The notes beneath the pieces were generated by a model that was given only the letters and a program-made list of their open reading frames with translations, was not told where the DNA came from and did not search any database. Shown piece after piece: positions 10,496 to 15,825 of a stretch of 23,706 nt of DNA. The DNA is from a virus. Numbering within the stretch: the stretch's first letter is position 1; each line of letters starts with the position of its first letter. The translations under genes were made by a program, and so were the position numbers. The DNA lies in the IMG/VR virus record IMGVR_UViG_3300008267_000387, positions 1-23,706 of that record, one strand, 5' to 3'.

Positions 10496-10570
10496 TGGCT
10501 GAGGAGGTAGGGATCGAACCTACGACCAAACGGTTAACAGCCGTTTGCTCTACCACTGAGCTACTCCTCA
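10496..10570 (-). tRNA. tRNA-Asn (anticodon GTT), CCA encoded
   Basis: The minus strand folds into a complete 75-base cloverleaf: acceptor TGAGGAG/CTCCTCA (7 perfect pairs), D-stem GCTC/GAGC, anticodon stem AACGG/CCGTT with loop CTGTTAA giving anticodon GTT (reads AAC/AAU), T-stem GTAGG/CCTAC with TTCGATC loop, discriminator G and an encoded CCA. The first 10 bases of the tRNA double as the end of the preceding protein gene, whose TAG stop falls at tRNA positions 8-10. It is transcribed within the leftward operon. It may compensate for codon demand in late genes or replace a cleaved host tRNA. Confidence 0.95.
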
Positions 10571-11732: not shown

Positions 11733-14132
11733 ATGCAACTAATCAACTTCGTACTACCGTCTTTACACTCTTCACTCACCGGAGGGCATCTCAATGCCAC
11801 TGAACTTCAAGCTAAAATCAAATCTTTCAACAAAGGAGAAGGCTACTATTGCCTCTTTGACCTTGAGCCTCGCGACTCTTTCAAAGAGTACCGAGGAGTC
11901 CAAAGCCCCGCTCTCGGCTACTTCGTTCTCGATTTTGATTCTAGTGAAGACATGGATAACGCTAAAAACGACTGCCTCACTGTTATCTCGTCCCTTCACC
12001 TTCAGCCGGATACTTTTAAAGTGTTCTTTAGTGGCAACAAAGGCTTTCACCTTTACATTCGCCAAGAGTTTTTTAACATCCCTGCAAACGACCGAACCGC
12101 AAAATCCTTTGAAGCTATCGCAACCGAACTCGGCAAACGCTTCAACCTTAACACCCTCGATGATTCAATCTATCAAGCCAATAGGAAGTTTAGAATTCCA
12201 AACTCCCAGCACCAAAAAACAGGACTCCATAAAATCGAAATCGACTGGCGAAGGCTGGAAAGTCTAACGATTGATGAAATCAAAAACCTCGCAAAAACAC
12301 CGCAAAAACTGACCCTTTTCGACTACTCCCTTCCTACCACGAAGTACACAAAAGCTGTGTATAAGAAGGAAGATGGCTCGGTGAATTTGTACGGTCTTGA
12401 TGCCGTGACAGATAAGGACATCAGCTCCGGTGGTTCGGGGGATTTTGCCACATTCAAAGACAAAGTGTGCATCTCATCCATGCAAGGCTCAAAGCACAAA
12501 GAAGGAATGCGCCACGAAGTCGCCCTCACCTTAATCTCCGAATACTTCCACCAAGGACTCACACAACCTGAAACCGAAGAGCGTCTCCTTTCGTACTGTA
12601 AAACTAACTCCATCGAAGAGCGTTTCAACCGTGACTATAAGCGCGCCATTAAGGATATTTACAACGGAGGCACCGAGTACAAGTTCGGGTGCTATTCCAA
12701 AATCAAACAAAAGTTCTGCTCCGGCACTTGCGGTCTTTATCCACGTTTAGACCCATATAAACGAGCCGAAGTCACCGATTCACCCGTTCCTGCTAGTTCG
12801 TTGAACCGGGTTTCAGAAGGTTCGGGTGGGGCGGTGGACTCTAACCTCTCTAAAAAGGAACAACGAGAACTAGAAAAGAAACAAAAGGCCGAGGAAAAGC
12901 GCAGAGCCTACCTCCAATCACTCCCCGTCAGTACCTTCAAAGAATGGGGCGATAAAGGCCCAAAATGCACCATTTCTAACGTACAACATATGCTAGAAGC
13001 CCTCTCAATCGACGTTAGATACGATGTCATTAAGAAAAATATCCACATCGAAATCCCAAACTCCAAGTTCCTGATCGACACCGAACTAAACGACAAGATG
13101 AATTTCATCGTCTCTTTAGCCATCTCGTGCGATATGAACTACGGCAAAATTGAAGACTTCGTCTCATTCATCGGGGCAAAAAACCCCTATAACCCCGTGG
13201 CTCGGTGGGTTGATGAGCGTCCTTGGGACGGCGTAGACCGCCTCCAAGCCTTCTTCGACACCGTAACAGGAGCCAATGACCACGTTGATGAAGAGCGTCT
13301 CTTCAAAGAAACCCTACTGCGCCGGTGGATGATCTCTGCCATCGCAGCCGCCTACTCCCCGAACGGCATCCAAGCCCACGGCGTCCTCGTCTTCACTGGC
13401 GCTCAATACATGGGGAAAACAAACTGGTTTAAGTCCCTTGCCCCTGAATCCCTCCAAGTCCTGAAAGACGGAGCAATCCTTGACCCTAAAGACAAAGATA
13501 GCGTCTACCAGGCCGTATCTAATTGGCTCGTGGAATTAGGCGAAATCGACTCCACCTTCCGCAAATCCGACATCGCCCAGCTTAAAGCGTTCATCACTAA
13601 AGACAAAGATACCGTCAGGCTTCCCTACCGCCGGGAACCTGCCTCTTTCGCCCGCCGTACCGTATTCTTCGGGAGCGTCAACGATAACGAATACCTAAAC
13701 GACCCAACCGGAAACCGCCGCTTCTGGACAATCAAGTGCGAAAAGCTCAACTTTAACCACGGGCTTGATATGCAACAAATCTGGGCGCAAGTCCTAAGCC
13801 TATACGATGCGGGCGAACCTTGGTGGCTCTCTAAAGAGGAAATGGACAAACTCAATATCCTTAACCAAGACTTCGAGACCGAAGACCCAGTGGCTTTTAA
13901 ACTTAAAGAGAAGTTTGAGCATTCTGAAGGAAGTCTACTGTCAGCAACCGAGATTGCCGAACTTCTAGGCTACACCTTCCCTCAACAACGAGACCTACGA
14001 GCTATTGGTAGGGCAATCAAAAAGGTATTTAACTTAAATGCTGAAAGAATTGACGTAAAAAGAGGCTACCGAATCAAGCCGATTGACGGCTCGGTGGATG
14101 TCAGGGACTCGGCTCAAGAGAATCCGTTTTAG
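11733..14132 (+). CDS. Primase-helicase fusion (archaeo-eukaryotic-type primase + VirE/SF3-like helicase)
   Basis: The 799-residue product joins two replication activities. The N-terminal AEP-type primase shows motif I YFVLDFDS (D67, D69), motif II SGNKGFHLYI (S100-H106), and a motif III-like KFRIPNSQ...GLHKIEID (about 150-170). A Cys cluster, CYSKIKQKFCSGTC (about 320), may bind zinc. A charged linker (KKEQRELEKKQKAEEKRR) separates it from a virulence-associated E (VirE)-type P-loop ATPase with Walker A GAQYMGKT (556-563), Walker B WLVELGEID (about 596-604), an RLPYRREP arginine segment and FFGSVNDNEYLNDPTGNRRFW. A C-terminal winged-helix-like part follows. It should prime and unwind DNA at the fork. 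The start has GGGGGA 6 bases upstream of the ATG. A terminator and repeat cluster follow. Confidence 0.92.
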   Translation: MQLINFVLPSLHSSLTGGHLNATELQAKIKSFNKGEGYYCLFDLEPRDSFKEYRGVQSPALGYFVLDFDSSEDMDNAKNDCLTVISSLHLQPDTFKVFFSGNKGFHLYIRQEFFNIPANDRTAKSFEAIATELGKRFNLNTLDDSIYQANRKFRIPNSQHQKTGLHKIEIDWRRLESLTIDEIKNLAKTPQKLTLFDYSLPTTKYTKAVYKKEDGSVNLYGLDAVTDKDISSGGSGDFATFKDKVCISSMQGSKHKEGMRHEVALTLISEYFHQGLTQPETEERLLSYCKTNSIEERFNRDYKRAIKDIYNGGTEYKFGCYSKIKQKFCSGTCGLYPRLDPYKRAEVTDSPVPASSLNRVSEGSGGAVDSNLSKKEQRELEKKQKAEEKRRAYLQSLPVSTFKEWGDKGPKCTISNVQHMLEALSIDVRYDVIKKNIHIEIPNSKFLIDTELNDKMNFIVSLAISCDMNYGKIEDFVSFIGAKNPYNPVARWVDERPWDGVDRLQAFFDTVTGANDHVDEERLFKETLLRRWMISAIAAAYSPNGIQAHGVLVFTGAQYMGKTNWFKSLAPESLQVLKDGAILDPKDKDSVYQAVSNWLVELGEIDSTFRKSDIAQLKAFITKDKDTVRLPYRREPASFARRTVFFGSVNDNEYLNDPTGNRRFWTIKCEKLNFNHGLDMQQIWAQVLSLYDAGEPWWLSKEEMDKLNILNQDFETEDPVAFKLKEKFEHSEGSLLSATEIAELLGYTFPQQRDLRAIGRAIKKVFNLNAERIDVKRGYRIKPIDGSVDVRDSAQENPF

Positions 14133-14486
14133 TGACGGTTTGATGAGCGTCTCAATGACGGTTTGTAGAGAGAGGAAGGTGATGAGCCTTCCTTTTTTTA
14201 TGGGTTTTTGGAGTAGTGGAGCGGGGTGGTAGGATGATTTTATCGGGGCGGTGGTTCGGGTGACGGTTAAACCGTCATTAAAAAGCATACCGTCATTGCT
14301 ATCTGTCACTGAAAAAATCTTTTATTATTAGCTATATACAGTAAACAATGACGGTAATGACGGTATGTATGTATTTATATAAGTTACAAAGTAGAAATGT
14401 ATATTTTGTAGTACTACTATAAAAAACGCATTTTACTATATAAGGATTAGAAAGCTGAAAATACCGTCAGACCGTCAGAACCGTCA
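14133..14486. repeat. Cluster of ten TGACGGT repeats (iteron-like), candidate origin or regulator-binding region
   Basis: This gap of about 360 bases without a gene has ten exact copies of TGACGGT. Forward copies start at 14133, 14156, 14261, 14349 and 14358; inverted copies (ACCGTCA) start at 14271, 14289, 14463, 14471 and 14480. Two forward copies form a tandem AATGACGGT pair (14347-14364). One forward and one inverted copy form the near-perfect palindrome TGACGGTTAAACCGTCA (14261-14277). Between the groups lies an AT-rich block (about 14300-14460) that includes GTAGTACTAC (14408-14417). Iterons flanking AT-rich DNA next to a primase-helicase gene resemble a replication origin, but operators for a repressor would look similar. 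Confidence 0.7.
14173..14199 (+). terminator. Rho-independent terminator after primase-helicase
   Basis: AGGAAGG (14173-14179) pairs with CCTTCCT (14187-14193) around a 7-base loop, and the stem runs into seven Ts (14193-14199). It lies 40 bases after the primase-helicase stop codon and between TGACGGT copies 2 and 3. Confidence 0.85.
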
Positions 14487-14495
14487 TTAAGTCCC

Positions 14496-14813
14496 TTAAT
14501 CGTAGTCGCTAATGTCCGAAATAAACTCGGAAACATCCTCCGCTCGCTTGGCACGTTTCTTCCAGTTCTTGCCCCGGAGCGCCGGGGTATTAGTCTGAAG
14601 CCATGTCCGGCACCGGACGATCGTGGTGAATGAGGGGACTTCCTTTTGCATGAGCCAATCCTTTAATTCGACGAACCCCCCGCACCGGAGGGAGCAGAAT
14701 CGCTGGTAGTAGGTTAGGACTAACAGCTTATCGGACTCTCTTGTGTCGGGAAGAGTCGCTAGGAGGTGTTCAACTTTGCTTTTTACTGTCGTGTATTCTG
14801 AAATAGTATCCAT
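14496..14813 (-). CDS. Hypothetical protein (105 aa), possibly DNA-binding
   Basis: The 105-residue product begins MDTISEYTTVKSKVEHLLATLP, has a helical middle (ESDKLLVLTYYQRFCSLRC), then a segment with helix-turn-helix-like rhythm (LKDWLMQKEVPSFTTIVRCRTWLQTN) and a basic stretch (LRGKNWKKRAKR), ending acidic. The PSFTTIVRCRTWLQ part resembles a recognition helix seen in small phage proteins, but this is a weak call. It has no Shine-Dalgarno site; a promoter candidate just upstream would place transcription start at or next to the ATG. Its 3' end abuts the TGACGGT cluster, which makes it a possible binder of those repeats. Inference only. Confidence 0.6.
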   Translation of the reverse strand: MDTISEYTTVKSKVEHLLATLPDTRESDKLLVLTYYQRFCSLRCGGFVELKDWLMQKEVPSFTTIVRCRTWLQTNTPALRGKNWKKRAKRAEDVSEFISDISDYD

Positions 14814-14820
14814 GCCGACT

Positions 14821-14849
14821 GGTTTAAACTAGGTAACTCACCGTGTCAA
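14821..14849 (-). promoter_or_regulatory. Candidate promoter for the 105-aa gene, possibly giving a leaderless mRNA
   Basis: On the minus strand a perfect -35, TTGACA (14844-14849), is followed after 17 bases by a weak -10, TAAACC (14821-14826). The predicted start of transcription is near 14814, beside the ATG at 14813, and no ribosome-binding site is present. The -10 overlaps the palindrome GTTTAAAC. Confidence 0.4.
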
Positions 14850-14863
14850 TTAAAATCATTCCC

Positions 14864-14876
14864 GCATCCTTTGTGC
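14864..14876 (-). repeat. Degenerate copy of the ATCCTTTGCGCG repeat
   Basis: GCATCCTTTGTGC matches the repeat family except in the GCGC part. It lies upstream of the 105-residue gene and its candidate promoter. Confidence 0.5.
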
Positions 14877-14930
14877 CCGGGAGTACACCATAACCCTTGC
14901 GGATGGTGCTATTGATGGCACAATGGACTT

Positions 14931-15095
14931 ATGGAAAAGTCGCTTTGGCAAAATATGGTTGAGACTATCAAAAGTAAGAAGCCCACCGAGACGGATGAGA
15001 CTGGCTATCCAAAGATGACCCCCGAGCAACTTGCTCAGGTAAACAAGACTTGGAACCCCAAGGATAAGGAAGAACTCGCTAAGGTATTTCGTTAG
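14931..15095 (+). CDS. Small hypothetical protein (54 aa)
   Basis: The frame from ATG (14931) to TAG (15093-15095) encodes a hydrophilic protein with protein-like composition: MEKSLWQNMVETIKSKK at the N-terminus and MTPEQLAQVNKTWNPKDKEE near the end. It is the only rightward protein frame between the TGACGGT cluster and 18.9 kb. Ribosome-binding site is weak (TGGACTT directly upstream) and no promoter is obvious. Competing frames here are shorter and less protein-like. Function unknown. Confidence 0.45.
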   Translation: MEKSLWQNMVETIKSKKPTETDETGYPKMTPEQLAQVNKTWNPKDKEELAKVFR

Positions 15096-15135: not shown

Positions 15136-15223
15136 TCGGGGGTAGCTTAAACGGAAGAGCTTGAGCCAGACGACGCGTCGACGCCTGAACTCGGTGTGGG
15201 TTCGAGTCCCGCCCCCCGATCCA
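15136..15223 (+). tRNA. tRNA-like element with abnormal anticodon region
   Basis: Three tRNA arms are clear on the plus strand: acceptor TCGGGGG/CCCCCGA (7 pairs) with discriminator T and encoded CCA at 15221-15223; D-arm GCTT/GAGC preceded by TA; and T-arm GTGGG/CCCGC around TTCGAGT. The 35 bases between D- and T-arms do not form a normal 5-bp stem with a 7-base loop. They hold instead overlapping palindromes (GACGCGTC, GCGTCGACGC). Total length is 88 bases, the size of a tRNA with a long variable arm (Ser/Leu type), but no anticodon can be assigned. It may be a decayed tRNA, a tRNA with an insertion, or a tRNA mimic. Confidence 0.5.
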
Positions 15224-15378: not shown

Positions 15379-15825
15379 CTACTCTCCTTTGTCTTTCTTC
15401 CGCGCATCCTTTGCGCGTGAGCGTGTTAGTGCATTAACGTCTAAGGGGTACGGACTCCCGTCTTTGGACGCTATGATGTCTAGAGTGTACCCGAGCGCCT
15501 CAACATAGTCCTTGAGTCTCGAGATTGTCGGGGAGTTGTAACCGCGTTCAATCTTCAAAACTTCTCCTTGATGCCCAGCTCCTCGCCCCCTTTCGTGCAT
15601 CCTTTGCGCGAGGGCTTCTTGGGTGATACCAACTTTATTCCTAAGATCGGCAAGGCCACAAAGTCGAAACTCCTCGCTAGGCGTATCCTTTGCGCGTGGG
15701 AGTTCTTCTTGGGCGACAAGTAAAGCCAAGTTTAGAGCGAAAAAAATATCTTGGAGGGCGTCATCTGGTATTTTTTGGTAGCGATTGATGTGCCAAATTA
15801 TTGATTCAAGTTTTTGGATGTTCAT
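15379..15825 (-). CDS. XRE-family helix-turn-helix regulator with repeat insertions
   Basis: The 148-residue product contains an XRE/Cro-CI type HTH at about residues 58-112: LADLRNKVGITQEALAQRM, then VLKIERGYNSPTISRLKDYVEALGYTLDI. Between the two HTH halves sits HERGRGAGHQGE, longer than the usual turn. Three copies of the 12-mer ATCCTTTGCGCG lie in the coding sequence, encoding RAKD (twice) and AQRM in different frames. Helical N-terminal region (about residues 1-45) may dimerise. AAAGGA lies about 13 bases before the ATG at 15825. It is a candidate regulator of the leftward cluster and possibly binds the 12-mers; that link is inference. Confidence 0.8.
   Translation of the reverse strand: MNIQKLESIIWHINRYQKIPDDALQDIFFALNLALLVAQEELPRAKDTPSEEFRLCGLADLRNKVGITQEALAQRMHERGRGAGHQGEVLKIERGYNSPTISRLKDYVEALGYTLDIIASKDGSPYPLDVNALTRSRAKDARKKDKGE
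15402..15417 (-). repeat. ATCCTTTGCGCG repeat, copy 2 (inside the XRE gene)
   Basis: The 12-mer core is at 15406-15417, preceded by GCGC. It encodes part of RSRAKDAR near the C-terminus of the XRE protein. Confidence 0.85.
15599..15610 (-). repeat. ATCCTTTGCGCG repeat, copy 3 (inside the XRE HTH)
   Basis: This exact 12-mer encodes AQRM in the HTH region, in a reading frame different from the copies at 15406 and 15685. Confidence 0.85.
15685..15696 (-). repeat. ATCCTTTGCGCG repeat, copy 4 (inside the XRE gene)
   Basis: This exact 12-mer encodes part of PRAKDTP in the linker before the HTH, in the same frame as copy 2. Confidence 0.85.

Follow-up and report, generated by a model that had tools for sequence, protein, structure and literature searches.

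A TGACGGT iteron array directly 3′ of a VapE-type primase-helicase gene: a probable phage replication origin whose repeats covary with the predicted winged helix of the initiator

The viral DNA analysed here is a stretch of 23,706 nt, referred to throughout as the window. It encodes a terminase large subunit, a portal protein, a family-A DNA polymerase and an SNF2-type helicase, and its relatives are phage contigs of 42–45 kb. We considered whether it might be a PICI satellite, an element that depends on the structural genes of a helper, and rejected this since the window has terminase large subunit and portal genes. Ten exact copies of the 7-mer TGACGGT, or of its complement ACCGTCA, are packed into 354 bp of the window (14133–14486), beginning 1 base past the stop codon of a rightward gene for a 799-aa primase-helicase and ending 9 bp short of the stop codon of a leftward 105-aa ORF. 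An earlier reading of the sequence alone had put the array between the end of the primase gene and the end of a leftward gene, and that is where it lies; because the two flanking genes converge on it, no gene starts inside the array. Its place is that of an origin located immediately 3′ of its initiator gene, as in the rep-ori pairs of PICIs and SaPIs. The features of the locus, in window coordinates, are as follows.

11733–14132, + strand: primase-helicase gene, 799 aa, the proposed origin-binding initiator, with N-terminal archaeo-eukaryotic-type primase (AEP), VapE-like helicase and C-terminal winged helix
13887–14081, + strand: part coding for the C-terminal winged helix (aa 719–783), the proposed iteron-reading domain
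13986–14030, + strand: part coding for the predicted recognition helix (aa 752–766), which precedes the wing in both models and falls within the covariation peak
14133–14486, no strand: whole iteron array, ten TGACGGT copies, the proposed replication origin
14133+, 14156+, 14261+, 14271−, 14289−, 14349+, 14358+, 14463−, 14471− and 14480−: start and strand of each exact TGACGGT copy
14133–14162, + strand: outer direct iteron pair (14133–14139 and 14156–14162, 23-bp spacing)
14174–14199, + strand: probable intrinsic terminator of the primase gene, GGAAGG-TGATGAG-CCTTCC then seven T, read in the sequence
14261–14295, no strand: outer iteron group + − −, made of the palindrome TGACGGTTAAACCGTCA (14261–14277) and an inverted copy (14289–14295)
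14349–14364, + strand: core left arm, tandem iterons (14349–14355 and 14358–14364, 9-bp spacing)
14365–14462, no strand: A+T-rich core spacer, 98 bp, 79% A+T, the proposed melting region
14463–14486, − strand: core right arm, three inverted iterons (14463–14469, 14471–14477 and 14480–14486; 8- and 9-bp spacing)
14496–14813, − strand: 105-aa ORF that ends at the array, outside the conserved origin module and without a match in the relatives that keep the array

The density of repeats, which the sequence-only reading had called far above chance, is borne out by the counts: TGACGGT occurs 14 times in the window, against 2.4 expected, a number that none of 100 shuffled sequences reached, and no other 7-mer cluster in the window is as strong as the array (log10 p about −18). 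The four copies outside it (8949, 13611, 17033 and 19628) are at about chance level, and the window holds no second TGACGGT cluster. The same array is present in a second contig (L002), with 3 differences from the window in 7298 bases. The orientations, the palindrome, the tandem pair (present as AATGACGGT at 14347–14364), the inverted copies on the right and the A+T-rich stretch are likewise all present as that reading described them. What it had not spelled out is the orientation pattern around the core, in which two forward iterons on the left and three inverted ones on the right, at spacings of 8–9 bp, face each other across a spacer that is 79% A+T in a window of 56%. The probable terminator overlaps an inverted repeat (I10), and a consensus scan did not list it; a similar hairpin is found in two relatives (L260 and L277), and a terminator is annotated at the same place in P4 alpha. 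Two tRNA genes, Asn(gtt) at 10496–10570 (−) and Arg(acg) at 15136–15223 (+), flank the primase-array region, and relatives L256 and L258 have a tRNA-like sequence just beyond their own arrays.

Cumulative GC skew, which had been proposed as a check on the origin, proved uninformative. There is a local sign change near 14.0 kb, but the window as a whole reaches its minimum at about 18.9 kb, and in a 42-kb relative the array does not coincide with an extremum; we set skew aside as an origin test because it follows gene direction. Nor does the word TGACGGT itself stand out: a scan of viral contigs for three-copy arrays is saturated with it, but equally so with a permuted 7-mer, and most of the matches look like coding repeats. 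In six of the contigs (L034, L061, L095, L099, L038 and L046), TGACGGT recurs at spacings of 10–12 and 22 bp, mostly inside a predicted ORF of about 200–330 aa, and such intervals, which match turns of the helix, point to binding sites, perhaps within a gene, more than to coding repeats.

The protein encoded immediately upstream has the parts that an origin-binding initiator would need. Residues 497–715 match PF05272 (E 2.6e-57, 194 bits against a gathering score of 25), which makes this a VapE-like helicase; a search for a D5_N helicase in 11 related records found none. The N-terminus matches proteins called 'DNA primase small subunit' in Bacillus and Thermus phages, and by fold the N-terminal part of the model pairs with the primases of archaea and human (Z 6.5 and 6.2). 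A sequence search found a single solved structure, 7pds, PriRep1 with dsDNA (E 4e-23), and it also ranks first by fold (Z 13.6, over aa 396–787). As the full-length model is only moderate (mean pLDDT 63), we relied on its helicase and winged-helix parts alone. The last 80 residues are modelled with good confidence as a winged helix, AlphaFold2 giving the order H-E-H-H-E-E for aa 719–783 with pLDDT mostly 84–91. Fold matches to this domain are generic, all with Z under 7, and 1ka8, the P4 origin-binding domain, is among them (Z 5.1); since winged helices resemble each other widely, such matches carry no information on specificity.

Arrays of the same kind lie downstream of primase genes in relatives, as the sequence-only reading had suggested one should look for, with layout and position kept and the repeat word changed (AGGGCAG, GGTGACA, TGGTCAT, AGTGCA, TGGATAC and others). 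Relatives identified by their terminase keep the gene order primase, array, HTH gene, terminase, portal. L260 and L277 have an AGGGCAG array about 100 bp beyond the primase stop, after the terminator-like hairpin; the core of L260 is a 92-bp stretch of A+T-rich DNA with a tandem pair of repeats on one side and two inverted copies on the other, and this cluster after the primase is the strongest in the stretch examined. In L275, two copies of GGAGCAG are followed by 94 bp and two inverted copies. The window, L260 and L275 thus share one plan, two forward repeats, a spacer of 98, 92 or 94 bp, and two or three inverted repeats, built from three different words. The repeat word is therefore specific to a lineage rather than universal.

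L275 also indicates how such a word may change. Its terminase is 83% identical to that of the window, while at positions 1–980 the VapE primase has been replaced by a primase of another PHROG family (with a phrog_6088-like C-terminus), upstream of the GGAGCAG array; Pfam gave no match on the fragment upstream of the array, and PHROGs gave primase C-termini. Since a C-terminus of another family and an array of its own accompany a terminase that is still so similar, initiator and array were replaced together, apparently as one cassette comprising initiator and origin. Two relatives at a greater distance (terminase 50%) have dense arrays, one of 13 copies of TGTAACA (L280, 7066–7414) and one of 11 copies of TGAAACA (L278, 255–706), in stretches in which no VapE gene was found.

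The association extends well beyond these relatives. In the viral-contig set, which comprised 80 of the 400-plus VapE loci found by primase similarity, the strongest 7-mer cluster lay between −200 and +500 of the VapE stop codon in 42 of 48 loci with a strong cluster (4.7 expected); after thinning to less than 70% identity the figure was 14 of 17 (1.6 expected), and in 2 cases the cluster was close to the gene start. A separate set of loci from bacterial genomes, on which the idea had not been formed, gave 18 of 25 after thinning (2.2 expected) and none near the gene start. The 333-bp gap that follows the VapE gene in Enterococcus phage phiFL4A contains ten copies of TGGATAC, and the VapE genes of Paenibacillus phage Jacinda and Lacticaseibacillus phage JB1P3 are followed by ten copies each of GTTGCAG and TGGGACA. 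The rule has its exceptions: at many Pseudomonas prophage loci the cluster is slightly farther away (about +380 to +650), in Mica and ep3 it lies some 2.8 kb past the primase, Bacteroides phage BT12 has no array after its VapE gene, and several other VapE loci have no detectable array. In all 28 viral representatives the spacer between the inner iterons, taken as the A+T-richest gap, is richer in A+T than the locus, and in 21 of them the inner copies are inverted, the spacer then measuring 72–116 bp.

If the winged helix reads the repeats, repeat word and domain should change together, and statistically they do. Across 33 non-redundant loci, iteron similarity correlates with identity of the primase C-terminus (r 0.49–0.52) and less so with identity of the helicase or N-terminus. 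The C-terminal effect persists once helicase identity is removed (partial r 0.34–0.36, permutation p 0.0005, with the permutation run over related sequences, so that shared ancestry is only partly removed), and the partial correlation for helicase or N-terminus given the C-terminus is about 0. Along the protein, the correlation peaks at aa 740–780, where the model places the recognition helix and the wing. Some lineages carry one iteron copy within the primase gene, which might dictate the protein sequence and make the argument circular; when loci with an in-gene copy were dropped and only repeats beyond the stop codon were used, the result was unchanged (n=27, partial r 0.34). The covariation holds at redundancy cut-offs of 80% and 70%, and at 60% (n=11) the partial correlation has a p of 0.052. 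The AGGGACA lineage (L335, L340, L342, L350 and others) has one such iteron about 137 nt before the primase stop, where it falls in the part coding for the winged helix, so that a binding site and the domain presumed to read it share bases.

Individual pairs illustrate both the trend and its looseness. L326 and L344 are 87% identical in the helicase and 94% in the winged helix and have GGTGACA in common; L326 and L346 are 86% identical in the helicase and 51% in the winged helix, and the iteron of L346 is TGGTCAT, against GGTGACA in L326. L326 and L361 have nearly the same iteron even though their winged helices are just 40% identical, so the link is statistical and not one-to-one.

Taken together, these observations make it very probable that replication of this phage starts at the array, as one half of a rep-ori pair of the kind known from SaPIs and PICIs and from P4 alpha, bound by the winged helix of its primase-helicase. 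An iteron-type origin had been proposed from the letters alone, and it is strongly favoured by the conserved position 3′ of the initiator gene, by the layout around an A+T-rich core and by repeats that change with the winged helix. Two candidate binders had been named along with it; the primase-helicase, with its own C-terminal winged helix and covarying repeats, is the likely one, whereas the 105-aa protein lost ground for want of a counterpart in relatives that keep the array. We suggest that the AEP-VapE primase-helicase encoded just upstream would bind the TGACGGT iterons through its C-terminal winged helix, and that iterons converging on the 98-bp core would load helicase rings on both sides of it. 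The rings could then melt and unwind the core (14365–14462), where the fused primase domain would lay down primers for the family-A DNA polymerase of the phage to extend.

Three other accounts of the array deserve consideration. The array might be a cis-acting replication element that the primase-helicase binds, like crr of P4, with synthesis starting at a different origin; P4 sets a precedent, in that crr, directly 3′ of its alpha gene, and a distinct ori both contain the type I repeats, and since the window is only part of a phage genome the true start could be elsewhere. Yet the array has a complete core with an A+T-rich spacer, whereas crr has about 35 bp between its + + and − − repeats, and the absence of a second cluster from the window, together with the rank of the post-primase cluster in L260, tells against this reading; we regard an accessory site as improbable. 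A related thought is that what is conserved, and recognised by its shape, is a large stem-loop of the sort suggested for the archaeal plasmid pRN1 and for phage BIP-1, with the repeats as nothing more than its arms. pRN1 requires a 100-nt stem-loop 3′ of a gene for an AEP-helicase-winged-helix protein, the same has been proposed for BIP-1 (PMC4234260), and the core strand of the window does fold as a stem-loop with iteron arms (z −5.45). Inverted iterons form such a stem by themselves, however; the outer copies, direct pairs included, lie outside it, in 7 of the 28 loci the inner copies do not form an inverted pair, and the repeat sequence tracks the winged helix, which recognition by shape would not require. 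We think this account very unlikely.

The sequence-only reading had itself pointed to a third possibility, an operator cluster for a repressor; the candidates for that repressor are the 105-aa protein and the 148-aa product of an HTH_3 gene (15379–15825). The HTH_3 gene lies about 0.9 kb from the array and is kept in L256, L258, L260, L275 and L277. Against this, the array sits between two gene ends, and the alternative is weakened by the fact that no gene starts there and that no sigma70-like site was found in 13900–15000; moreover, VapE genes are followed by such arrays across widely differing phages and hosts, their repeats vary with the primase C-terminus, and the 105-aa gene has no match where the array is kept. 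A repressor's operators thus seem a most improbable explanation, and the reading of the array as an origin bound by the primase-helicase is the one we carry forward.

In a wider context, we consider it likely, with somewhat less assurance than for the window itself, that VapE primase-helicase replicons in general, among them full-size tailed phages and prophages, use an origin of the satellite type, in which two iteron sets enclose an A+T-rich core directly 3′ of the initiator gene. The iteron word would differ from lineage to lineage and be read by a winged helix that evolves fast; it would follow that sequence alone is enough to find cognate iterons and that origin specificities are swapped as a cassette. 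Origins are known for only a minority of environmental phages, and a rule that places the origin just past the VapE gene would locate it in hundreds of phages and prophages from their sequences. Matching repeats to winged helices would make changes of initiator specificity testable, and the occurrence of a satellite-type origin in full-size phages is relevant to the competition for replication between satellites and phages. Copies of the phage Sfi21 origin protect dairy streptococci against phages (PMC6356513), so VapE arrays could also act as decoys.

This kind of origin is already known from satellites and from P4. Our literature search found no paper on iterons of VapE phages, although earlier reports may exist in subscription journals; within the literature searched, what appears to be new is the wide presence of such origins in full-size tailed phages and prophages, together with sequence evidence that repeat words follow the winged helix. 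Among relatives in architecture, pRN1 and the Bordetella phage BIP-1 share the AEP primase, the helicase, the winged helix and a cis element of about 100 nt directly 3′, but no iterons were found there and the stem-loop was proposed instead (PMC4234260). Staphylococcal PriRep1, the closest protein of solved structure in both sequence and fold, is about 19% identical over the aligned part. The isolated C-terminal domain of SCCmec Cch2 binds repeats 3′ of its gene (PMC7581432), much as we propose here, although Cch2 is of the D5_N/Primase_Cterm type and has only three 5-nt repeats. P4 alpha, too, is a fused primase-helicase; its C-terminal winged helix binds iterons of 8 bp, and the crr repeats follow its gene directly, behind a terminator, much as the iterons of the window lie directly 3′ of the primase-helicase gene. 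Its primase, however, is of the Toprim type (PMC4234260), whereas the N-terminus of the window's protein is AEP-type by sequence and fold, and P4 has two separate sites, crr and an ori that lies about 2.1 kb beyond the start of the alpha gene (L370).

The closest parallel is the rep-ori of SaPIs and other PICIs (SaPIbov1, SaPI1, EfCIV583 and EcCICFT073). The origins of PICIs lie immediately 3′ of rep and always consist of two iteron sets around an A+T-rich region, and a rep-ori segment from an E. coli PICI maintains a plasmid (PMC6092414). SaPI Rep helicases recognise the iteron origin directly downstream of their own gene through a C-terminal domain (PMC7581432). The window has its proposed origin in the corresponding place, 3′ of the primase-helicase gene, with two iteron sets around an A+T-rich core as well, and its protein is likewise a helicase, fused to a primase as is sometimes the case in these elements, with a predicted winged helix in the place of their C-terminal DNA-binding domain. 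Where the two differ is in the replicons that carry them. PICIs and SaPIs are phage satellites, and the arrangement was earlier described as particular to these (PMC6092414); the window is part of a full-size tailed phage that encodes a terminase, a portal, a family-A polymerase and an SNF2-type helicase of its own, which suggests that the two-iteron-set layout is spread more widely than satellites.
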